Positions 33,990 to 55,245 of a DNA stretch of 64,000 nt are shown one piece after another. A program made the translations under genes and the position numbers. The notes beneath the pieces are model-generated. The model did no database searches. It worked only from the letters and a program-made list of their open reading frames with translations, and was not told the origin of the DNA. The DNA comes from Nocardioides aquaticus (GTDB taxonomy: Bacteria; Actinomycetota; Actinomycetes; Propionibacteriales; Nocardioidaceae), in contig NZ_CP075371.1 of assembly GCF_018459925.1 (NCBI RefSeq), positions 2,108,001 to 2,172,000 on the forward strand, written 5' to 3'. Within the stretch, counting starts at the first letter, position 1. Each line of letters opens with the position of its first letter.

Positions 33990-34063
<74 letters not shown>

Positions 34064-34067
34064 CAAA

Positions 34068-34186: not shown

Positions 34187-34217
34187 AAAGGCCCCCGCAC
34201 CAGTGTCGGTGCGGGGG
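34187..34217. repeat. 31-nt hairpin repeat, left copy
   Basis: The stem GCCCCCGCAC pairs with GTGCGGGGG around a short loop. An identical 31-nt copy is at 42578-42608 and a few flanking bases also match (gcag before, cttg after). It looks like a terminator. The two copies bracket the giant repeat gene and nothing else. Confidence 0.85.
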
Positions 34218-34322
34218 TCTTGTGGGGACCGGTCATGAGGAGCAGGCGGACGCTGAGGCTGCTGTACGGGTGTTGCGTCGCCGGGCAGCTGTCGGGTTCT
34301 GGGGCCCAACCCTCGGCGGTTG

Positions 34323-34442: not shown

Positions 34443-34583
34443 TCGGTGCTTAGAAAGACGCAGGGGTCGGATGGCTCCGATTCGTTCACATCGTTCATCT
34501 TGTGGTGGAACGGCGAATTGGCTGCGGGGGAGCGGTTAGGCTGCCGCCGATGGTCACGGGGGTGTGGTCACGATGGGGGAGTT

Positions 34584-37500
34584 ATGCGCATCCAGGGTCT
34601 CACCGTGCAACGTCGTCGCGGAGCCGACCGTTCTACTCATATGGGCGCCCTGGCCCAGGGTGTGATGAGGGTTGGCCTGCTGGCGGGTAGGCCGACGGCG
34701 GTGGCCCGGAAGTGCACTGCAGCAGCCCTCATGGCATGCCTGATGCTCTGCATGGCGACTGTTGTGCCCACGTCTGCTGGAGCCGCTGGGGGAAGCACAC
34801 TGCTGACCTCGACGTCTGCGGGTATCGCCGGCGAGCCCGTGCGGTTCAGTGGGAAGTTGAGCACACGAGGCGCCCGTCCGGTTCAACTGCAGCGGAAGGT
34901 TGGGACACGGTGGGTGAAGGTCGCTGACGCGAAGTCCAACAAGCGTGGCCAATTTGCCTTCAGGTCCACGATCCGGACCGTCAGCACGACCTACCGGGTG
35001 GAGGCGCCCGCCGTACGACTTGGCGGCAGGAAGTTGAAGGTGCTCAGCACTCCAGCGCGAAAGATCACCACTGAATCGCAGTCAGGATCTCTTGATCTGC
35101 CTACGACGGCTGACCAAGCCTCGACTATCTCGGTGGCCACGGTGTTCACCCCGCCACGGCCAGGCCGTCCAGTTGAGCTTCAGATGAAGACGCCGCGAGG
35201 CTGGGAGCAGGTGGCGACTGCGCCGCAGTCCACGGTTGGCGGCGCGAAATTCTTGGTTCCCACCGAAGCAGTCGGGTCCTTCGACTTCCGAGCCATGACG
35301 GCGCCGTTCAACGGCGCCTCGGCCGTCACCACGGCCCCCCGCACGCTGGAAGTAACCGCGACTCCTCCCACCGACATAACTCCCCCTGCCGTTCCGACTG
35401 GGGTGGTCGCGACGCCCGGGAATGGTCACGTCGGCCTGGCATGGAGCCCGGTCACTGCAAGCGACCTCGATGGCTACCTCGTCTACCGTGCGCCCACCGC
35501 CAACGGCCCTTGGGCCAAGCTCACCGCCATCCCGAACACCGCCACCGGCTACGACGCCACGGGCCTGACCAACGGCACGACCTACTGGTTCGCCATTACC
35601 AGCATCGACGACACTGGCAACGAGTCCGCAAAGTCCGCGCCCGGACAAGGGACACCGGCTGCGGTGCTAGACACCACTCCGCCCGCCGTTCCGACTGGGG
35701 TGGTCGCGACGCCCGGGAATGGTCACGTCGGCCTGGCATGGAGCCCGGTCACTGCAAGCGACCTCGATGGCTACCTCGTCTACCGTGCGCCCACCGCCAA
35801 CGGCCCTTGGGCCAAGCTCACCGCCATCCCGAACACCGCCACCGGCTACGACGCCACGGGCCTGACCAACGGCACGACCTACTGGTTCGCCATTACCAGC
35901 ATCGACGACACTGGCAACGAGTCCGCAAGGTCCAACGCCTCTCCCGCGACACCCGCCTCGCCGCCGTCGAGTGTCGTGGACCACTGCGGGACCTTGAGTG
36001 TTGATCAGACGTGGACGCCCGCAACGACCCACCGCTTGACGTGTGACTTGACGGTGCCAGCCGGGCGGACTCTCACGGTTGAGGCCGGGGCCGTCATCAA
36101 AGGAGCCGGGAACTCTTTGGGCCTGGATGTCGAGGGCACCTTGAACGTCAACGGCACCGCCGCCAACCCGGTCGTGTTCACCAGCCTGCGCGACGACACC
36201 GCCGGCGGCGACACCAACGGTGATGGCGACGCCACCACCCCCGCCACCGGCGACTGGGACGGCATCAGCATCCGGCCCGAGGCCCGCGCCACCTTCGACT
36301 ACACCACCGTCGGCTATGGCCGGGTCGACTCCGGCGACGCCGACGTGTTCCGGTTCCGCCACTCCACCTCCCACGACTCCGATGGAACTGGTGTGTCGGT
36401 CCAGGTGGACCGCTCCGGGATCGACGCCGGCAGCGCGATCGTGGAGGTCTCTGACTCCACCGTCACCCGCGCCCGCTACAGCGGGATCGAGGTGGACGCG
36501 ACCGGAAATCCGCAGGGCTCAGGCACCCAGATCCCCGTCCCCACCGTCGCCAACAACACCGTCACCAACTCCGGCGCCGACTCCAACACCTCCGCCGCGA
36601 TCAGCGTCTCCGGTGATGCCCTGGATGGAAGCCTTCTGCGCGACAACTCCGGCACCGGGAACAAGATCAACAGCATCACCCTGGGCGGCACCCTCACCAC
36701 CAATACCAGCGTCCCGCTCGGCGGCCTCCCCCTCGGCCTGGCGAACTCCTCTGTCAGGCCGCTGACCGTGGCCCCCGGCGCCACCATGAACGTCGCCGCC
36801 GGCCAGGTCATCAAGGCCCATCCCGGCAGCTACACCAGCCTGGATGTCGAGGGCACCTTGAACGTCAACGGCACCGCCGCCAACCCGGTCGTGTTCACCA
36901 GCCTGCGCGACGACACCGCCGGCGGCGACACCAACGGTGATGGCGACGCCACCACCCCCGCCACCGGCGACTGGGACGGCATCAGCATCCGGCCCGAGGC
37001 CCGCGCCACCTTCGACTACACCACCGTCGGCTATGGCCGGGTCGACTCCGGCGACGCCGACGTGTTCCGGTTCCGCCACTCCACCTCCCACGACTCCGAT
37101 GGAACTGGTGTGTCGGTCCAGGTGGACCGCTCCGGGATCGACGCCGGCAGCGCGATCGTGGAGGTCTCTGACTCCACCGTCACCCGCGCCCGCTACAGCG
37201 GGATCGAGGTGGACGCGACCGGAAATCCGCAGGGCTCAGGCACCCAGATCCCCGTCCCCACCGTCGCCAACAACACCGTCACCAACTCCGGCGCCGACTC
37301 CAACACCTCCGCCGCGATCAGCGTCTCCGGTGATGCCCTGGATGGAAGCCTTCTGCGCGACAACTCCGGCACCGGGAACAAGATCAACAGCATCACCCTG
37401 GGCGGCACCCTCACCACCAATACCAGCGTCCCGCTCGGCGGCCTCCCCCTCGGCCTGGCGAACTCCTCTGTCAGGCCGCTGACCGTGGCCCCCGGCGCCA

Positions 37501-40500
37501 CCATGAACGTCGCCGCCGGCCAGGTCATCAAGGCCCATCCCGGCAGCTACACCAGCCTGGATGTCGAGGGCACCTTGAACGTCAACGGCACCGCCGCCAA
37601 CCCGGTCGTGTTCACCAGCCTGCGCGACGACACCGCCGGCGGCGACACCAACGGTGATGGCGACGCCACCACCCCCGCCACCGGCGACTGGGACGGCATC
37701 AGCATCCGGCCCGAGGCCCGCGCCACCTTCGACTACACCACCGTCGGCTATGGCCGGGTCGACTCCGGCGACGCCGACGTGTTCCGGTTCCGCCACTCCA
37801 CCTCCCACGACTCCGATGGAACTGGTGTGTCGGTCCAGGTGGACCGCTCCGGGATCGACGCCGGCAGCGCGATCGTGGAGGTCTCTGACTCCACCGTCAC
37901 CCGCGCCCGCTACAGCGGGATCGAGGTGGACGCGACCGGAAATCCGCAGGGCTCAGGCACCCAGATCCCCGTCCCCACCGTCGCCAACAACACCGTCACC
38001 AACTCCGGCGCCGACTCCAACACCTCCGCCGCGATCAGCGTCTCCGGTGATGCCCTGGATGGAAGCCTTCTGCGCGACAACTCCGGCACCGGGAACAAGA
38101 TCAACAGCATCACCCTGGGCGGCACCCTCACCACCAATACCAGCGTCCCGCTCGGCGGCCTCCCCCTCGGCCTGGCGAACTCCTCTGTCAGGCCGCTGAC
38201 CGTGGCCCCCGGCGCCACCATGAACGTCGCCGCCGGCCAGGTCATCAAGGCCCATCCCGGCAGCTACACCAGCCTGGATGTCGAGGGCACCTTGAACGTC
38301 AACGGCACCGCCGCCAACCCGGTCGTGTTCACCAGCCTGCGCGACGACACCGCCGGCGGCGACACCAACGGTGATGGCGACGCCACCACCCCCGCCACCG
38401 GCGACTGGGACGGCATCAGCATCCGGCCCGAGGCCCGCGCCACCTTCGACTACACCACCGTCGGCTATGGCCGGGTCGACTCCGGCGACGCCGACGTGTT
38501 CCGGTTCCGCCACTCCACCTCCCACGACTCCGATGGAACTGGTGTGTCGGTCCAGGTGGACCGCTCCGGGATCGACGCCGGCAGCGCGATCGTGGAGGTC
38601 TCTGACTCCACCGTCACCCGCGCCCGCTACAGCGGGATCGAGGTGGACGCGACCGGAAATCCGCAGGGCTCAGGCACCCAGATCCCCGTCCCCACCGTCG
38701 CCAACAACACCGTCACCAACTCCGGCGCCGACTCCAACACCTCCGCCGCGATCAGCGTCTCCGGTGATGCCCTGGATGGAAGCCTTCTGCGCGACAACTC
38801 CGGCACCGGGAACAAGATCAACAGCATCACCCTGGGCGGCACCCTCACCACCAATACCAGCGTCCCGCTCGGCGGCCTCCCCCTCGGCCTGGCGAACTCC
38901 TCTGTCAGGCCGCTGACCGTGGCCCCCGGCGCCACCATGAACGTCGCCGCCGGCCAGGTCATCAAGGCCCATCCCGGCAGCTACACCAGCCTGGATGTCG
39001 AGGGCACCTTGAACGTCAACGGCACCGCCGCCAACCCGGTCGTGTTCACCAGCCTGCGCGACGACACCGCCGGCGGCGACACCAACGGTGATGGCGACGC
39101 CACCACCCCCGCCACCGGCGACTGGGACGGCATCAGCATCCGGCCCGAGGCCCGCGCCACCTTCGACTACACCACCGTCGGCTATGGCCGGGTCGACTCC
39201 GGCGACGCCGACGTGTTCCGGTTCCGCCACTCCACCTCCCACGACTCCGATGGAACTGGTGTGTCGGTCCAGGTGGACCGCTCCGGGATCGACGCCGGCA
39301 GCGCGATCGTGGAGGTCTCTGACTCCACCGTCACCCGCGCCCGCTACAGCGGGATCGAGGTGGACGCGACCGGAAATCCGCAGGGCTCAGGCACCCAGAT
39401 CCCCGTCCCCACCGTCGCCAACAACACCGTCACCAACTCCGGCGCCGACTCCAACACCTCCGCCGCGATCAGCGTCTCCGGTGATGCCCTGGATGGAAGC
39501 CTTCTGCGCGACAACTCCGGCACCGGGAACAAGATCAACAGCATCACCCTGGGCGGCACCCTCACCACCAATACCAGCGTCCCGCTCGGCGGCCTCCCCC
39601 TCGGCCTGGCGAACTCCTCTGTCAGGCCGCTGACCGTGGCCCCCGGCGCCACCATGAACGTCGCCGCCGGCCAGGTCATCAAGGCCCATCCCGGCAGCTA
39701 CACCAGCCTGGATGTCGAGGGCACCTTGAACGTCAACGGCACCGCCGCCAACCCGGTCGTGTTCACCAGCCTGCGCGACGACACCGCCGGCGGCGACACC
39801 AACGGTGATGGCGACGCCACCACCCCCGCCACCGGCGACTGGGACGGCATCAGCATCCGGCCCGAGGCCCGCGCCACCTTCGACTACACCACCGTCGGCT
39901 ATGGCCGGGTCGACTCCGGCGACGCCGACGTGTTCCGGTTCCGCCACTCCACCTCCCACGACTCCGATGGAACTGGTGTGTCGGTCCAGGTGGACCGCTC
40001 CGGGATCGACGCCGGCAGCGCGATCGTGGAGGTCTCTGACTCCACCGTCACCCGCGCCCGCTACAGCGGGATCGAGGTGGACGCGACCGGAAATCCGCAG
40101 GGCTCAGGCACCCAGATCCCCGTCCCCACCGTCGCCAACAACACCGTCACCAACTCCGGCGCCGACTCCAACACCTCCGCCGCGATCAGCGTCTCCGGTG
40201 ATGCCCTGGATGGAAGCCTTCTGCGCGACAACTCCGGCACCGGGAACAAGATCAACAGCATCACCCTGGGCGGCACCCTCACCACCAATACCAGCGTCCC
40301 GCTCGGCGGCCTCCCCCTCGGCCTGGCGAACTCCTCTGTCAGGCCGCTGACCGTGGCCCCCGGCGCCACCATGAACGTCGCCGCCGGCCAGGTCATCAAG
40401 GCCCATCCCGGCAGCTACACCAGCCTGGATGTCGAGGGCACCTTGAACGTCAACGGCACCGCCGCCAACCCGGTCGTGTTCACCAGCCTGCGCGACGACA

Positions 40501-42467
40501 CCGCCGGCGGCGACACCAACGGTGATGGCGACGCCACCACCCCCGCCACCGGCGACTGGGACGGCATCAGCATCCGGCCCGAGGCCCGCGCCACCTTCGA
40601 CTACACCACCGTCGGCTATGGCCGGGTCGACTCCGGCGACGCCGACGTGTTCCGGTTCCGCCACTCCACCTCCCACGACTCCGATGGAACTGGTGTGTCG
40701 GTCCAGGTGGACCGCTCCGGGATCGACGCCGGCAGCGCGATCGTGGAGGTCTCTGACTCCACCGTCACCCGCGCCCGCTACAGCGGGATCGAGGTGGACG
40801 CGACCGGAAATCCGCAGGGCTCAGGCACCCAGATCCCCGTCCCCACCGTCGCCAACAACACCGTCACCAACTCCGGCGCCGACTCCAACACCTCCGCCGC
40901 GATCAGCGTCTCCGGTGATGCCCTGGATGGAAGCCTTCTGCGCGACAACTCCGGCACCGGGAACAAGATCAACAGCATCACCCTGGGCGGCACCCTCACC
41001 ACCAATACCAGCGTCCCGCTCGGCGGCCTCCCCCTCGGCCTGGCGAACTCCTCTGTCAGGCCGCTGACCGTGGCCCCCGGCGCCACCATGAACGTCGCCG
41101 CCGGCCAGGTCATCAAGGCCCATCCCGGCAGCTACACCAGCCTGGATGTCGAGGGCACCTTGAACGTCAACGGCACCGCCGCCAACCCGGTCGTGTTCAC
41201 CAGCCTGCGCGACGACACCGCCGGCGGCGACACCAACGGTGATGGCGACGCCACCACCCCCGCCACCGGCGACTGGGACGGCATCCACATCCGGACAGGC
41301 GGAGCTGCTTCTCTGCAGCATGCGAGAATTCTGTATGCCTCAGGCCCGCTGATTTCTTCCGGCGCCTTGGACGCGACAAATACTCGTATTGACCGCGCTG
41401 GCTCTACGTGCGTATCGGTGGATTCCGATGGAAGTGGCCGTTTTGCCGGGACCCTGCGCGGCTGCGAGACCGGTGTTTCCGCGTCCTCTTCCACACCTTT
41501 TGATGCTCGTCACATTGACTGGGGCGCGACATCCGGGCCGGGTGTGGACGGGAACCCGCAAGTTTCCGGAAACCTCGTGAGCTACTACCCGTGGGTCGGC
41601 GCGCCGATCCCCAAGCCGATCGCGCAGCCACCAGCCACCGAACCCGTTCGTGTGAACGACCAGTGCGCCGACTACCTCTTCATCGGCCTCCGCGGATCGG
41701 GGGAAACGGGTGGTCTGGGGCCGAAAGTCACTGACATCTACAACGGGCTGACCTCTGACTGGGTGGGTGTCGATGTTCCCGACGATGCGACTTTCGACAA
41801 GGTGGCGATCGCCTACGAGGCCAACCCCGTTCCAATCGTTGGTACCTCCGGTCGCAACGCGTGGCAGCAAGTTGGTGACGTCGCGAACTACACACCCGGC
41901 GCCTGGGACGGCGCAGTGCGGCTGGTCCTTCAGCTCCAGACGGCGGTCGAGGAGTGCGGTGACGCCGGACAGACGATTCTTCTCGGCGGTTACTCACAAG
42001 GCGCGTGGGCGATACACGCCGCGGTCAGCTATCTGGAGGCCACCGACTCTGACCTGCTGGACCGGATCGATGGCGTTGCCCTCTTGGCCGATCCGCTGAG
42101 ATCCAGTTTCATGAGCCGGCAGAACCTGGGAACCGCCGAACCACACGACGGGGTTAGCGCCACCTTCATCGGATTCGCGGCCCTCGAGTTCAACGACTGG
42201 ATCCAGGATTCCGCACTTTCGGGATTCCCGAGCGTGCCGAATTTGAGGATGAATGATTTCAGCTACCCCTCCACCCTGTACTCCAGCACGGTCGAGATGT
42301 GCGATTGGGGCGACGCAGTCTGCGACACAAGCTCATTCCTAAAGTTCCCCGAGGTCCTGAGCATCGAGGACTACTTCGTCGACGGCGCTGAGATCCATAG
42401 CGCCTACAACACGCAGCGACTGCGCGGCCTGGGAGCCGAACTCCAACGCATCGCGCTGAACAACTGA
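34584..42467 (+). CDS. giant secreted repeat protein: FN3 domains, beta-helix repeats, C-terminal cutinase-like hydrolase
   Basis: About 2627 aa from ATG 34584 (GGGGGAG just upstream); in-frame starts at 34446, 34641 and 34665 are alternatives. A signal peptide is seen as a basic segment followed by '[20 protein letters not shown]'. Next comes an Ig-like stalk domain ([20 protein letters not shown]), then two almost identical 99-residue FN3 units. The bulk is seven 239-residue units, each with '[15 protein letters not shown]', a Ca-loop-like '[11 protein letters not shown]' and '[10 protein letters not shown]', which suggest a right-handed beta-helix. The C-terminus is cutinase-like: '[19 protein letters not shown]', then the nucleophile motif GYSQG (Ser codon 41994-41996, about residue 2471), a later 'LLADPLR' Asp and a C-terminal His candidate in 'GAEIHSAYN'. 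No LPXTG anchor. It lies between attL and the integrase. Function is inferred as an extracellular esterase or adhesin, not shown. Confidence 0.85.
35388..35928 (+). repeat. duplicated FN3-coding unit, 297-bp period
   Basis: The stretch 35388-35631 is repeated without any change I can see at 35685-35928. Each copy encodes an FN3 domain with '[20 protein letters not shown]' and '[20 protein letters not shown]'. The copies differ just after the repeat (aag versus agg codon). Confidence 0.9.
36121..41285 (+). repeat. 717-bp perfect tandem repeat, seven full copies plus 146 bp
   Basis: Units start at 36121, 36838, 37555, 38272, 38989, 39706 and 40423, with a partial unit from 41140 to 41285, after which the sequence diverges. 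The bases I compared are identical between copies, including synonymous positions. The period is a multiple of three (239 codons), so gain or loss of units keeps the frame. Long minus-strand ORFs in each unit are by-products. Confidence 0.95.
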
Positions 42468-42577: not shown

Positions 42578-42608
42578 AAAGGCCCCCGCACCAGTGTCGG
42601 TGCGGGGG
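42578..42608. repeat. 31-nt hairpin repeat, right copy (bidirectional terminator)
   Basis: Identical to 34187-34217. It lies between the stop of the giant gene (42467) and the stop of the convergent integrase gene (42625), the normal place for a two-way terminator. The gap 42468-42577 otherwise shows nothing. Confidence 0.85.
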
Positions 42609-42624
42609 CCTTGAGGATGCCGGT

Positions 42625-43818
42625 TCAGGCGGTCTGCTCGTCCTCCGGCGGTGGAGCGAAGTCATCTAGGGCCGTCCCGAGGTTCGGACCCTTCACGATG
42701 CGTCGCAAGTAGTGCTGGTCGGTGACCTTCGAGCCCGGCACGTGGCCGAGCTGGACCTGCGCCTCGTCCTTCGACGAGGTATCGCGGACCGTCGTGGCCA
42801 CGGTCTTGCGGAAGGTCCGGGGCGTGACCCACTCGAGGTCTGAGCCCTTCCGGGCCGCACGCCACTGCCGGCGCAGGTTGTTCGGGCTGACCCAGGTGTC
42901 GTTCCGGGTCAGGAAGATGCCGTCCAGCTCGGTCTCCCGAGCCTGGTCGCGTCGCAGCCGGAGCACCTCCGCGGCCCAGTCGGGCAGGAGCAGCCGGCGG
43001 AACCCGGTCTCGGTCTTCGGGAGGTCCTGTCGGTAGAGGCTGCCCTTGCGGGGCTGGATGACGGTCCCGGTCACCGTCACCCACATGCCGTCGGCATCCT
43101 CGACAACCTCGGACCACCGCAGAGCCAACACCTCACCGATGCGGCACCCGGTGGCCAGGTGCAGGGCGACGACGTGGGCGAGGTCAGCGTTGGTCTTCGG
43201 TCCGGTTCTCTGACGGTTCGACCAGGCGCCGATGAGCTCGTAGACCTCACGGACGCCGGCGCCGTCGAGAACTTGCACCTCGTTCTTCGGTCGGGACACC
43301 TTCGTCACGGACCGGGCCGGGTTGGCCAAGAGGACGTCGTGGCGGACTGCCAGGTCGAACATCATCCCGAGGACGGTCTTGGTGTGCCGGGCCTCGGTGG
43401 GCTTGCCCAGGTCGTTGCTGATCTTCTTGACGTGGGCGTCCAGACGTCCGACGGACGCCTCACGGAGCCGTAGTGCACCGAGGGGCTTGCGGATGCGGCG
43501 CTCGACGATGGCCTTGTAGCCGTCGTAGGTGGACTCGCGGATGCTGCCGCCGGCCTTGACCTCCTCGAGCCACAGGTCGGCCAGGTTGGCGACGGTGGAC
43601 TCCCTGCTCAGCACACCGTCACCGGCGGGAGCGGCACGCTGGGTGAGCTTCACCTTGAGGGCGTTGCTGGCCTTGTTGGCGGTGGTGCCGTTGGCGGTCA
43701 CGACGCGCGTGACGCCGTCGGTGTCACGGAACCGGGCCGAGGCGATGAAGCCGCCGCGGGCCTGCTTGGTGATGCTGACGTTGCCCCAGGAGCCGATGGG
43801 GAGGGGCGGGCGGGCCAT
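42625..43818 (-). CDS. int: phage/ICE-type tyrosine integrase
   Basis: 397 aa. The start ATG 43818 overlaps the stop of the upstream excisionase-like gene (TGATG). The order is an N-terminal AP2-like arm-binding segment (WGNVSITKQARGGFIASARF), a core-binding SAM-like domain (LWLEEVKAGGSIRESTYDGY), and a catalytic domain with Arg in 'ATGCRIGEVLALRW', 'RTFRKTVATTV', His in 'QLGHVPGSKVTDQHY' and the nucleophile Tyr of QHY. Where the family usually has H-x-x-R, this protein reads R-x-x-R (PRTFRK), so the box II His is replaced. It should integrate the element at tRNA-Pro. Confidence 0.93.
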   Translation of the reverse strand: MARPPLPIGSWGNVSITKQARGGFIASARFRDTDGVTRVVTANGTTANKASNALKVKLTQRAAPAGDGVLSRESTVANLADLWLEEVKAGGSIRESTYDGYKAIVERRIRKPLGALRLREASVGRLDAHVKKISNDLGKPTEARHTKTVLGMMFDLAVRHDVLLANPARSVTKVSRPKNEVQVLDGAGVREVYELIGAWSNRQRTGPKTNADLAHVVALHLATGCRIGEVLALRWSEVVEDADGMWVTVTGTVIQPRKGSLYRQDLPKTETGFRRLLLPDWAAEVLRLRRDQARETELDGIFLTRNDTWVSPNNLRRQWRAARKGSDLEWVTPRTFRKTVATTVRDTSSKDEAQVQLGHVPGSKVTDQHYLRRIVKGPNLGTALDDFAPPPEDEQTA

Positions 43819-44021
43819 CAGGCTGCCTCGGTCTGCGCGTCGAGCCAGGCGTCGACGACGGCGCGGCGGTAGCGGAGGTCGTTTCCGACCTTGATGGCGG
43901 AGGGGCCGTACCCCTGGACTCGCCAGCGGTAGAGGGTCCGCTTGGGCTTGCCGAGCCACTCGGCGAGCTCGTCGATGGTGAGGAGGGGGTCGAAGGGCTT
44001 CTCGGGGGTCGTGGTACTCAC
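43818..44021 (-). CDS. excisionase-like helix-turn-helix protein (AlpA/MerR type)
   Basis: 67 aa. 'DPLLTIDELAEWLGKPKRTL' and 'YRWRVQGYGPSAIKVGNDLR' form the winged HTH of AlpA/Xis-like proteins, followed by 'YRRAVVDAWLDAQ'. The GTG at 44021 has GGAG 6 nt upstream; the ATG further up (44069) lacks this. It is translationally coupled to int, as expected of a directionality factor or repressor of excision. Confidence 0.85.
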   Translation of the reverse strand: MSTTTPEKPFDPLLTIDELAEWLGKPKRTLYRWRVQGYGPSAIKVGNDLRYRRAVVDAWLDAQTEAA

Positions 44022-44175
44022 GGTTGCTCCATGCGTTGTGGGCTCCGGGGGAGCCGTGTGCAGAGGCACCGTGCGCGGCGGTCAGCCCTGGTCAATGGCG
44101 CTCAGGCCCGGATCGTGTGGCTTGCGCCATGCCCACGAGGGGCCCGGGGGTAAGTCTGGGTAACCCTGGGTGAGT

Positions 44176-44231
44176 CGCAAGTAGCGACTACCTACAGAAG
44201 AGAGAAGACGAGAAGAGAAGACAAGAAGAGG
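44176..44231. repeat. polypurine element, copy A
   Basis: CGCAAGTAGCGACTACC is followed by a GAAGAG-rich purine tract of about 35 nt. A diverged copy with the same layout is at 53929-53986. Both are in divergent intergenic gaps of the phage region. Candidate origin iteron or two-way promoter element. Confidence 0.7.
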
Positions 44232-44981: not shown

Positions 44982-47825
44982 GTGCCCAGCACCGTCAAGC
45001 GCCCCTCCCTCAACGAGATTCGCACCCGCGTTGCCAAGTTCGTCGTCGCCTACAAGGACGTCAAGGGCGAGAAGCAGCACACGCAGCAGTTCTGGTCCGA
45101 CTTCCTCCGCTGCTACGGCATCGACTCCACCTTCCTCGAGGGGGTCGTCTTCGAGTACCCGGCACGGCGCTCCGACACTGGCGGACAAGGGTTCATCGAC
45201 GCGTTCATGCCCGGCCGCTTCCTCGTCGAGCAGAAGTCCGAAGGCAAGGTCGTCCGACCCAAGGACGGCGCCCCGTCGAACGCCGAACTGCAGGCGTACG
45301 CGTACCTCACCGGAGGTGACATCACCGAAGCACAGCGACCGCGGTGGGTCGTCACCTCCGACTTCGCCACCCTCCAGGTCACCGACACGTCCAAGAAGCG
45401 CGAAGACATCACCCGCACCCTCACCATCGCCACCCGCGACCTCATCGACCACGTCGAGGACTTCCTCTTCCTCACCGGAGAAGACACCGACGGGCTCATC
45501 GCAGCCGACCAGGCGGAGGCATCCGTTGCCGCCGCCAAGCTCATGGGGCAGCTCTACGCGGCCATGACCGGCGACGACGACACCGAAACCGACATCGAAG
45601 ACGCCGAAGCTGAGGACGCCGAGACGATGGAGGCCTCCATCGTCCTGACCCGGCTCCTCTTCCTCCTCTTCGGAGACGACGCCAACTTGTGGGAGCGCGG
45701 ACTGTTCCAGCGGTTCGTCAAGACCCGCACCGCCCCTGACGGGTCCGACCTCGGGCCCATGTTGGCCCTGCTCTTCGACGTCCTCAACACCCCGGTCCGT
45801 CGGCGCGACAAGCGCACCGACGAGGGCGCCCTGGCGTTCCCCTACGTCAACGGCGCGCTCTATGCCGGCCAGACCAAGATGCAGTACTTCGACCGGGCCA
45901 TGCGCGACTCCCTCCTCGCCTGCTGCGACTTCGACTGGTCCCGCATCTCGCCAGCCGTGTTCGGGTCCCTCTTCCAGACCGTCAAGAGCAAGAAGGCCCG
46001 CCGAGGCGACGGCGAGCACTACACCTCAGAGGAGAACATCCTCAAGACGCTGAGGCCCCTGTTCCTTGACGACTTCCGGGCCCGGCTCGACGTTGCCAAC
46101 ACCAAGCCCCAGCTTGAGCAGTTCCACACCGACCTGCTCGGCTACCGGTACGCAGACACCGCGTCTGGGTGCGGGAACTTCCTCGTCGTCGCCTACCGCG
46201 AGATGCGGGCCCTCGAGCTCGACCTGCTGGTCAAGCTGCGCACCAAGCAGGGCACCGACCTCGACACCATGCTCGACCCATCCGACCTGCTCAACGTGCG
46301 CCTCGACCAGTTCTACGGGATCGAACTCAACTGGTGGCCGGCCAAGATCTCCGAGGTCGCCATGTTCCTCGTCGACCACCAGGCCAACCAGCGGATGGCG
46401 AAGACGCTCGGGCTGACCCCGAACCGGTTGCCGATCGACATCGCCGCCAACATCACCCACACCAACGCGCTCACGAAGGACTGGGACGACCTGCTGCCCG
46501 GACGGGGCGTCACGACCTACCTGTTTGGAAATCCACCGTTCTTGGGTCATTACACGCGCACAGCCGCCCAGGGTGCCGAGCTTCAGGCCGCATGGGAGGT
46601 CGCGAACGTGGGCCACCTCGACTTCGTGACCGCCTGGCATGCCAAGGCGATCGCGTACTTCGCCGACAAGCGCGGCGAGTTCGCCTTGGTCACCACCAAC
46701 TCGATCACCCAGGGCGAACCGGTCCCGGAACTGTTCGAGCGCATCCACGCTCAGGGCTGGCGGATCAAGTTCGGCCACCGAACCTTCAAGTGGGCCAACG
46801 AGTCGGCTGCGAAGGAGAAGGCAGCCGTCCACTGCGTCATCATCGGGTTCACCAGGACTCCAGCCACGCGAAACGACAAGGGTCGGCTGTTCGATTACGC
46901 CACCCCAACGTCGCCGCCGGTCGAGCGCAAGGTCACGACCGGAATCAATGGCTACCTCGTGGACGCACCCCCCGCCTACGTGACGTCCCGTTCCAAGCCC
47001 CTGTCGACCGACCTGCCGGTGGTTTCGTTCGGCTCGATGGCCAACGATGGCGGCGGACTACTCATCTCGGCAGCCGACCATGCCACAGTCGTCTCAGACC
47101 AGGTCGCGGCCAAGTACGTACGCAAGTTCGTCGGTGCGAAGGAGCTCATCAACAGTCTCGACCGCTGGTGCCTGTGGTTGGTCGACCTGGAACCGTCCGA
47201 TCTGGCCAAGTCCCCGGTGCTTCGACAGCGGATCGAGGCGGTGCGACAGCGGCGCGCCGCGAGCAACCGTGGAACTACCAAGGCCCTGGCCCAGACTCCG
47301 CACCTGTTCGGCGAGATCAGGCAGCCGACGGTGCCCTACCTGTGCATCCCTCGGCACTTCGCTGAGGACCGGCCCTACGCGACTGTCTCGCGTTTCGACG
47401 CAGACGTCATCGCGGGGGACGCGAACTTCACCTGCCCCGACCCCGATGGTTTCGGTTTCGGGGTCATCTCGTCGGCCATGTTCATCACCTGGCAGAAGAC
47501 CGTGGGTGGTCGTCTGAAGTCAGATCCGAGGTTCGCCGGGACAACGACTTGGAACACGCTCCCGCTGCCACCGGTCAAGGACTCGGTCCGTCAAGAGGTC
47601 ATCGCCGCCGGCGCAGCGGTACTCGCGGAGAGAGCCAAGCACCCCGGGCGAAGCTTGGCGGGCCTGTACAACCCGTTGGCCATGGACCGGGACCTGCTGG
47701 CCGCACACCGAGCCTTGGACAAGGTTGTTGACCGGGCATTCGGTGCCGGCCGTCGCAACTTGGCTGAGGTCGACCGGCAGGAAGTTTTGTTCGGGCGGTA
47801 CGCCGAGCTCACCGCGGCTGTCTGA
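44982..47825 (+). CDS. MmeI-type (Type IIL) fused restriction endonuclease and DNA methyltransferase
   Basis: 947 aa, close to the 919 aa of MmeI. The N-terminal nuclease has D73-x9-E83-Q-K85, the D-x9-ExK arrangement of MmeI. A helical spacer follows. The gamma-class N6-adenine methyltransferase has the upstream 'GEHYTSEENIL' (344-354), SAM motif 'ADTASGCGNF' (391-400) and catalytic 'NPPF' (517-520). The last third should be the target-recognition domain plus C-terminal cap. One protein both methylates one strand of its asymmetric site and cuts about 20 nt away. The GTG at 44982 follows GGAG. It is cargo within the phage-like region and probably excludes other phages. Confidence 0.9.
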   Translation: MPSTVKRPSLNEIRTRVAKFVVAYKDVKGEKQHTQQFWSDFLRCYGIDSTFLEGVVFEYPARRSDTGGQGFIDAFMPGRFLVEQKSEGKVVRPKDGAPSNAELQAYAYLTGGDITEAQRPRWVVTSDFATLQVTDTSKKREDITRTLTIATRDLIDHVEDFLFLTGEDTDGLIAADQAEASVAAAKLMGQLYAAMTGDDDTETDIEDAEAEDAETMEASIVLTRLLFLLFGDDANLWERGLFQRFVKTRTAPDGSDLGPMLALLFDVLNTPVRRRDKRTDEGALAFPYVNGALYAGQTKMQYFDRAMRDSLLACCDFDWSRISPAVFGSLFQTVKSKKARRGDGEHYTSEENILKTLRPLFLDDFRARLDVANTKPQLEQFHTDLLGYRYADTASGCGNFLVVAYREMRALELDLLVKLRTKQGTDLDTMLDPSDLLNVRLDQFYGIELNWWPAKISEVAMFLVDHQANQRMAKTLGLTPNRLPIDIAANITHTNALTKDWDDLLPGRGVTTYLFGNPPFLGHYTRTAAQGAELQAAWEVANVGHLDFVTAWHAKAIAYFADKRGEFALVTTNSITQGEPVPELFERIHAQGWRIKFGHRTFKWANESAAKEKAAVHCVIIGFTRTPATRNDKGRLFDYATPTSPPVERKVTTGINGYLVDAPPAYVTSRSKPLSTDLPVVSFGSMANDGGGLLISAADHATVVSDQVAAKYVRKFVGAKELINSLDRWCLWLVDLEPSDLAKSPVLRQRIEAVRQRRAASNRGTTKALAQTPHLFGEIRQPTVPYLCIPRHFAEDRPYATVSRFDADVIAGDANFTCPDPDGFGFGVISSAMFITWQKTVGGRLKSDPRFAGTTTWNTLPLPPVKDSVRQEVIAAGAAVLAERAKHPGRSLAGLYNPLAMDRDLLAAHRALDKVVDRAFGAGRRNLAEVDRQEVLFGRYAELTAAV

Positions 47826-53808: not shown

Positions 53809-53928
53809 GAGGTGCCAGGAAACCGGCACCCTGTCACTCAACTGGCGGCCGGCGAGGGGCGTCAGGAGGGCCTGCGGGGGTAGGTCCTACCTAACATTAC
53901 CGAGCACTTACCCAAGCTCTAAGTAAGC

Positions 53929-53986
53929 CGCAAGTAACGAGTACCTACAGAAGAGAACAGAGTAGAAGAGACAAGACCAGAAGAGA
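53929..53986. repeat. polypurine element, copy B
   Basis: CGCAAGTAACGAGTACCTAC plus a GAAGAG-rich purine tract matches copy A at 44176-44231. It sits between the leftward replication operon and the rightward lysis-side genes. Confidence 0.7.
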
Positions 53987-54428: not shown

Positions 54429-54510
54429 TTCTGTCCCCGAACCCGTGCCCCAGAGCCCCCCGTTCCGGGCCTTCAGGTGTGACCCGCCACCACACACCTG
54501 GGAGCACTCC

Positions 54511-55245
54511 GTGGCCACCAACACCCCCACCGCCAACCGCGTCATCGCCGAAGCCCGCAAGCACGTCGGGTTCCGCGAGACCTACTCCGGAGGCCACTGG
54601 GTCAACGGTAACAAGTTCGCAGCCATCGCCGGCCACGCCAACGGGTACGCCTGGTGCGCGACCTTCGTGTGCGCCATCTACAAGCTCGCCGGCGTCGCAG
54701 GACTCATTACCACGCCCTCCGCCGGAGTCGACCAACTCTCCGTCGGGTTCAAGAAGGCCGGCCGCTGGTCCGAGTCCCCGGCCATCGGCGCGGTCGTCTT
54801 CTACGGCACCCCCGCCGACCTCAACCACACCGGCATCGTGGCCAGCTACATCGGCGACACCATCACCGCCATCGAGGGCAACACGAACGACACGGGCAGC
54901 CGTGAGGGCAACGGGGTCTACGTGAAGACCCGTCCCCGCCGGGGCTCCGGGACCGCCGTCGGGTACGGCTACCCCGCCTACCCCGAGGGCATCGTGTCCG
55001 CTGACCCTGCCTGGGCCGACCGCGGTCCGAAGGGCCCCGGCGCCCCGTCTACCCCTGCCAACGGCGCGACCGTCAACATCACCCGGGCCCTCCGCGCGAA
55101 GACCTGGAAGGGCCAGGCGGCGGCTCTCCGACTCGTCACTAAGTACGGCTCGGAGAAGGCGCAGAAGGCCGCCGAGGCGGCGCTGAAGACCGGTGCCGCC
55201 CACGCCAAGGCCATGGACGCTCCGCGGGCCGAAGAGCGCAAGTGA
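54511..55245 (+). CDS. CHAP-domain endolysin
   Basis: 244 aa from GTG 54511 with GGGAG 7 nt upstream. The CHAP domain covers about residues 10-150: catalytic Cys49 in 'YAWCATFVCAIYK', His106 in 'LNHTGIVASYIGD', and 'AIEGNTND' with the third polar residue. It should cleave peptidoglycan peptide bonds. A short Pro-rich linker and a basic helical C-terminus (ALRAKTWKGQAAALRLVTKY) may bind the wall. No signal peptide, so export would need a holin. GTGA overlap with the next gene. Confidence 0.85.
   Translation: MATNTPTANRVIAEARKHVGFRETYSGGHWVNGNKFAAIAGHANGYAWCATFVCAIYKLAGVAGLITTPSAGVDQLSVGFKKAGRWSESPAIGAVVFYGTPADLNHTGIVASYIGDTITAIEGNTNDTGSREGNGVYVKTRPRRGSGTAVGYGYPAYPEGIVSADPAWADRGPKGPGAPSTPANGATVNITRALRAKTWKGQAAALRLVTKYGSEKAQKAAEAALKTGAAHAKAMDAPRAEERK

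Follow-up and report, generated by a model that had tools for sequence, protein, structure and literature searches.

A giant protein of Nocardioides aquaticus predicted to carry a cutinase-fold tip on a stalk of identical beta-helix units, with sequence signs of stalk-tip reassortment

We analysed a 64,000-nucleotide stretch of the Nocardioides aquaticus genome (assembly GCF_018459925.1, contig NZ_CP075371.1, positions 2,108,001 to 2,172,000 of the forward strand; hereafter the window), in which one gene encodes a giant protein with a repeat stalk and a cutinase-like C-terminus. In order, the protein comprises a putative signal peptide, putative immunoglobulin (Ig)-like modules, two FN3 domains, seven identical units followed by a capped eighth, and the C-terminal cutinase domain:

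34584..42467, + strand: giant stalked cutinase gene, 2,627 aa, single frame from ATG
34584..34784, + strand: signal peptide region, residues 1-67, with an AXA-type site, read from the sequence by eye
34791..35363, + strand: putative N-terminal Ig-like modules, from likeness by eye to the N-termini of locus L038 and protein P0013
35373..35956, + strand: two FN3 domains (near-identical 297-bp repeat; Pfam fn3)
36123..41141, + strand: seven identical units, predicted beta-helix, 717 bp (239 aa) each (DNA self-comparison, Pfam, structure models)
41142..41285, + strand: unit 8 core, 48 aa identical to the other units and ending GDWDGI; proposed recombination junction
41286..41660, + strand: predicted terminal beta-helix cap and linker (comparison with relatives, structure model)
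41661..42464, + strand: cutinase domain (Pfam, alignment, structure model)
41994-41996, 42312-42314 and 42396-42398, + strand: codons of Ser2471, Asp2577 and His2605, the triad by alignment

The listing of open reading frames (ORFs) also gives an in-frame GTG start at 34446, and the database entry of the same protein (P0002, 2,427 aa) begins 200 residues further in, a start that, if used, would remove the signal peptide. The ATG at 34584 was preferred because the Ig-like stretch looks like the N-termini of L038 and P0013, and because a purine-rich GGGGGAG lies shortly upstream, though at a tighter spacing than usual. The Ig-like assignment is our own reading of a stretch that has no match in Pfam. 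The FN3 domains were matched by Pfam fn3 in two stretches, above the curated cut-off (48.3 bits); NCBIfam profiles matched the giant protein only under their curated cut-offs. A Pfam match to Hydant_A_N (33.8 bits, above cut-off) was taken as spurious, no single stretch passing alone.

Self-comparison of the DNA gave a match at offset 717 with zero mismatches from 36121 to 40568 (4,448 bp). The perfect tandem DNA amounts to 5,165 bp at 100% identity, an exact array far beyond chance. In the eighth unit, identity holds for 48 residues from the start (LDVEG to GDWDGI) before the sequence diverges, with 62% protein identity across the matched part. Pfam Beta_helix (PF13229) matched seven stretches above its curated cut-off (65.3 bits), and in structure comparison residues 1-407 of a 704-aa model matched entries that we take to belong to the beta-helix fold class. 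Pfam and the model agree, and the units are predicted to fold as a right-handed beta-helix; among solved structures, the unit has no sequence relative at E 1. A beta-helix rises about 4.8 Å per turn of about 22 residues, and by this geometry the seven units would span some 35-40 nm.

The C-terminal tip scored 41.4 bits against Pfam Cutinase (PF01083) at residues 2360-2584, over a cut-off of 25.9, and 46.6 bits in another scan, and is predicted to have the cutinase fold. Its GYSQG motif starts at residue 2469. The Ser, Asp and His residues are conserved in 21/21 aligned tips, including tips with as little as 27-32% identity to that of the window; the alignment speaks to the residues themselves rather than to inter-residue distances. 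The window tip has two Cys pairs, presumably at the places of the cutinase disulfides; across the 21 aligned tips three of these Cys are found in all and one in 16. A 307-aa model contains a low-confidence segment at about residues 191-240, between Ser and Asp, which is possibly a lid. The phrog_102 (LysB) profile gave a partial match, over residues 106-188 only, and the 704-aa model found no match in a viral structure library at E 0.001, with several Lysin B entries at E 0.02-0.07. Taken together, these results uphold much of an original prediction made from the DNA letters: the two FN3 units, the seven identical 239-residue units (now at the DNA level), their predicted beta-helix fold, the cutinase-like GYSQG hydrolase and the presence of its Ser, Asp and His were all borne out, and its signal peptide looks right by eye. 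The two outcomes named as refuting it, a unit with no beta-helix prediction and a tip lacking the triad, both turned out in its favour as far as models and alignment reach.

We next considered how widely the architecture occurs. Counting the window's own genome, the tip matched in 2/215 genomes of the genus at E <= 1e-8, in 3/394 of the class at E <= 1e-15, and in 8 of 58 relatives at E <= 1e-3. The second match in the genus is an 815-aa protein whose cutinase-like part is N-terminal and in which no stalk was visible by eye. Protein searches returned 8, 12 and 220 matches, own included; among the 120 listed of the 220 from the stalk search, nine, own included, bear a cutinase domain by precomputed Pfam. 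Organism names of the relatives include Knoellia, Microbacterium, Pseudarthrobacter, Paenarthrobacter, Aeromicrobium and Cellulomonas, and where the proteins themselves carry a name, most are called 'cutinase family protein' or hypothetical. The cutinase is C-terminal: 18 of 20 proteins have GYSQG, with 124-166 residues after it, and P0023 has GYSLG instead. CWB2 is found in P0003 and P0004, and P0010, P0012 and P0014 are partial database entries. Among the eight relatives matched at E <= 1e-3, genome G023 has a frame-broken gene, flanked by transposase-like genes, for a cutinase with two FN3-like parts and two units; the units are near-identical, with 574 bp exact at offset 750. The tip match in G531 sits at a contig end. 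In G376 the stalked cutinase gene is immediately followed by trpC, with hisG some 1 kb upstream, and no mobile-element family was found among the five flanking ORFs scanned. Array plus tip, searched against genome contigs, gave one Cloacimonadota locus at 30%. These comparisons indicate that the stalked-cutinase architecture is a small actinobacterial family. A literature search found no paper joining cutinase, beta-helix and fibronectin type III, and none joining cutinase with a polymorphic toxin.

Parts of the architecture also occur in other combinations. L038 (7148-11557), from the same genus, encodes a giant of 1,469 aa that resembles the window protein at its N-terminus and matches the beta-helix unit; no match to the cutinase turned up in it. 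By eye, L035 (6977-9178, - strand) joins a cutinase-like domain, with GYAHG for GYSQG, to RCC1-like repeats. P0026 has related units and a different tip, with neither GYSQG nor GYSLG. P0029, P0031 and others carry the same type of beta-helix unit in large proteins, some named RHS repeat-associated by their sources, with extra domains that we take to be of RHS/YD type.

Stalk and tip identities were then correlated across the 15 proteins that have both a tip and a complete unit (105 pairs, 1000 permutations). Unit and tip identity showed no relation (rho -0.04). In the controls, the unit halves correlated with each other (rho 0.41, 0/1000 permutations), as did the tip halves (rho 0.63, 0/1000). 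Unit against tip halves gave -0.14 to 0.03; the cap went with the C-terminal tip half (0.39, 0/1000) and, at 0.21 (49/1000), with the N-terminal one, and gave 0.09 and 0.11 with the unit halves (233 and 212 of 1000). The stalk-tip value was 0.05 (327/1000) without the window protein, 0.02 (357/1000) within tip-found proteins and 0.22 (124/1000) within stalk-found proteins. Individual proteins display the same discordance within this sample. P0005 and P0094 share 82% identity in the unit and 28% in the tip; identity drops from 77% (residues 51-1250) to 33% (1301-1650), with the switch inside the terminal half-unit. The two are joined in the unit tree (100/99), a grouping that the tip data reject (p 3.7e-7). 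The window unit is closest to that of G376 (58%; tips 32%), and its tip to that of P0010 (59%; units 35%), with P0003 and P0004 in the same tip group (100/96). The window protein's stalk group does not survive testing on the tip data (p 2e-120), nor does its tip group on the unit data (p 2e-46). The window gene appears to combine a G376-like stalk with a Knoellia-like tip.

Part of the sample shares an edge at the junction. The exact match between last unit and cap ends at [DN]W.G[IL], or at most three residues beyond, in 5/15 proteins (P0001, P0022, P0003, P0009 and G376); P0010 has one mismatch just before this motif, in P0023 the match ends earlier, and the other eight, mostly with diverged arrays, have no such edge. 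Codon composition in the window gene breaks at the stalk-tip junction: fourfold-site GC falls from 0.93 in the unit to 0.70 in cap plus tip, the N-terminus standing at 0.73. The possibility that beta-helix residues alone produce this composition was set aside: in G376 the unit (0.82) is close to the N-terminus (0.83) and only somewhat above the tip (0.74). The break was retained as supporting evidence only. Overall, these data suggest that stalk and tip have been exchanged independently, which is apparently the new point here.

The surroundings of the gene comprise the following features:

33990..34064, + strand: tRNA-Pro (GGG), integration target (ARAGORN)
34030..34065, + strand: attL core, 36 bp (26-bp exact match, extended to 36 bp by reading)
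34187..34233, no strand assigned: terminator-like hairpin, copy 1 (47-nt direct repeat, 89%; folds as a hairpin)
42578..42624, no strand assigned: terminator-like hairpin, copy 2, directly after the integrase stop (second copy of the 47-nt repeat)
42625..43959, - strand: tyrosine integrase of the element (profile search)
43818..44069, - strand: excisionase-like ORF (HTH_17 profile)
71262-71297, window-equivalent, outside the window: attR, second 36-bp copy of the tRNA-Pro 3' end (sequence match)

The element between the att repeats measures 37,232 bp and contains the integrase, excisionase-like ORFs, an MmeI-like restriction-modification gene, a DnaB-like helicase, an endolysin, a nuclease and a weak replication-initiation match. 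Scanning 39 element ORFs chosen by a simple script (giant and MmeI genes excluded) revealed no capsid, portal, large-terminase or tail family at E 1e-4. The excisionase family phrog_66 matched two of the 39, and a small-terminase match is ambiguous, being a 152-aa ORF that scores as an excisionase too. The endolysin also matches a tail-lysozyme family, more weakly (E 4e-4). The original prediction had placed the gene within a phage-like element between tRNA and integrase; the cargo position in a tRNA-Pro element stood, but with no such virion family recognised among these ORFs at E 1e-4, 'phage-like' and 'lysogeny-conferred' found no support. A prophage-linked architecture likewise found no backing, given the relatives in other actinobacteria and the G376 copy between hisG and trpC.

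Integrase matches occurred in 56/215 genomes, at no more than 43% identity, and the element had no close relative among them. Of 24 loci read, with the window's own excluded, 17 lie beside tRNA-Pro(GGG), four beside tRNA-Met and three without a tRNA within reach. By hand calculation, the distance from tRNA to the end of the integrase match is 97-257 bp in the 21 tRNA-adjacent relatives and 8,560 bp in the window, and the giant gene is therefore extra cargo at the att-integrase junction. The 30-nt hairpin core occurs only twice in the genome, with up to three mismatches allowed, and the two copies bracket the gene, as though gene and terminator had been inserted together. The empty site was sought in 20 genomes through a flank gene (L029:10764-12278, about 1.5 kb past attR); none of the ten best loci (L070-L079, own excluded) had a tRNA, a weak search since these loci extend just 1,500 bases past the match, barely the expected distance. 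Elsewhere in the element, where no virion genes were recognised, lie the endolysin-like gene (54445-55245; phrog_9589, E 1.6e-53), the single-chain MmeI-like gene (44982-47825, five MmeI Pfam domains) and a 49-nt direct repeat with a purine-rich end (44170-44218 and 53923-53971, 84%, 9.75 kb apart).

PMC8201768 describes periscope proteins (SasG, Rib/alpha-C, Sgo_0707, CdrA), in which long, highly identical tandem repeats form a rod that projects a functional tip; the tips discussed there bind ligands. The window protein shares the long identical repeats, and periscope proteins appear to be the nearest concept. It differs in that its repeat is a 239-aa predicted beta-helix block, its tip is a predicted C-terminal enzyme, and stalk and tip appear to reassort in its family; whereas periscope length varies from strain to strain, the window array is known from one strain only. 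With the cutinase family PF01083 (fungal cutinases, cutinase-like enzymes and mycobacterial Culp such as Rv3802c) the tip shares the predicted fold, GYSQG, GD.VC, His and two Cys pairs, but it sits on a giant stalk and has the low-confidence Ser-Asp segment.

We weighed four other explanations. It is quite unlikely that the protein is a phage lysogenic-conversion or lysis factor, that is, a LysB-like esterase grown onto a stalk for attack or exclusion. Mycobacteriophage LysB, a lysis-cassette enzyme, has a related alpha/beta-hydrolase fold, reflected in the partial profile match, but the window protein has a putative signal peptide, a stalk and relatives outside phages. The tip found no match in 50,697 phage records, 72,556 plasmid records or viral contigs (pattern scan), the element has no recognised virion genes bar the ambiguous 152-aa ORF, and one relative adjoins trpC. 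The adhesin reading, in which the cutinase fold binds instead of cutting, has little probability: fibrillar adhesins share the stalk-plus-tip plan (PMC8201768 and PMC9210967), but the full triad persists across all aligned tips, even the most divergent. It is very improbable that a shorter gene was misassembled into the exact array. Only one assembly holds it, and P0010, P0012 and P0014 are partial; against this, the contig is a single one of 4.58 Mb, the frame is intact across units, and P0022, P0023, P0009 and G376 also hold exact arrays of different unit sequences.

It is unlikely that the protein is a weapon against other bacteria, in which a stalked, polymorphic effector swaps toxic tips in the manner of contact-dependent or Rhs systems. 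Polymorphic toxins such as CdiA and Rhs combine a conserved long body with exchanged C-terminal tips. The window family resembles them in the differing tips on like stalks that break at the terminal half-unit, in the related units of proteins that sources name RHS repeat-associated, and in P0026, which bears related units and a tip lacking a cutinase motif. However, the RHS proteins have just the stalk in common, and no translocation, pre-toxin or immunity part was identified in the window system; on the downstream side, the roughly 110 bp between stop and hairpin leave no room for an immunity gene. In addition, cutinases are known for acting on extracellular esters.

We consider it probable that the protein is a Sec-secreted, periscope-like stalked esterase with exchangeable parts and a far C-terminal cutinase tip; the simplest account is an esterase on an adjustable rod, either secreted or held at the surface. 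The Ig-like and FN3 modules would fix the near end, a long rod would be formed by about 7.4 beta-helix units, and the Ser-Asp-His tip would hydrolyse an ester outside the cell, be it a polyester, a lipid or an acylated polymer. Recombination among identical units may alter stalk length, and the conserved core ending GDWxGI may permit whole stalks and cap-plus-tip modules to be swapped across genes, so that, as we propose, reach and substrate vary independently. Here such a gene would have become cargo of the tRNA-Pro integrative element.

Several points weigh against this reading. The array copy number rests on one assembly. No anchor was recognised in the window protein, which may thus be fully secreted. 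The tip half of the 704-aa model is poor (10-residue mean pLDDT 23-77 from residue 441), so the geometry of tip on stalk cannot be read from it. In the small tip-found and stalk-found sets, one control each was weak (unit halves 0.15, 284/1000; tip halves 0.25, 116/1000), and most relatives were drawn by tip and stalk queries, which could weaken a stalk-tip correlation. The P0005/P0094 pair is less open to this bias, but it was chosen after seeing the matrix and comes from metagenome contigs shorter than 6 kb, which may be chimeric. The groups tested for the window gene were named after the identities had been seen, and the unit tree is long-branched (stalk group 33/73).

A wider scheme, which we put forward tentatively, is a combinatorial display system of actinobacteria, in which beta-helix stalks of identical units adjust in length, recombination occurs at the GDWxGI core, anchors, stalks and enzymatic tips reassort freely into new pairings of reach and substrate, and integrative elements account for part of the spread. 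If true, the reach and chemistry of a secreted or surface esterase would be tuned through recombination inside one gene, and the periscope concept would widen from binding tips to enzymes. The family would also offer a natural module for mounting ester-cutting enzymes on a rod, and a test case for the upkeep of identical repeats and the exchange of stalks.

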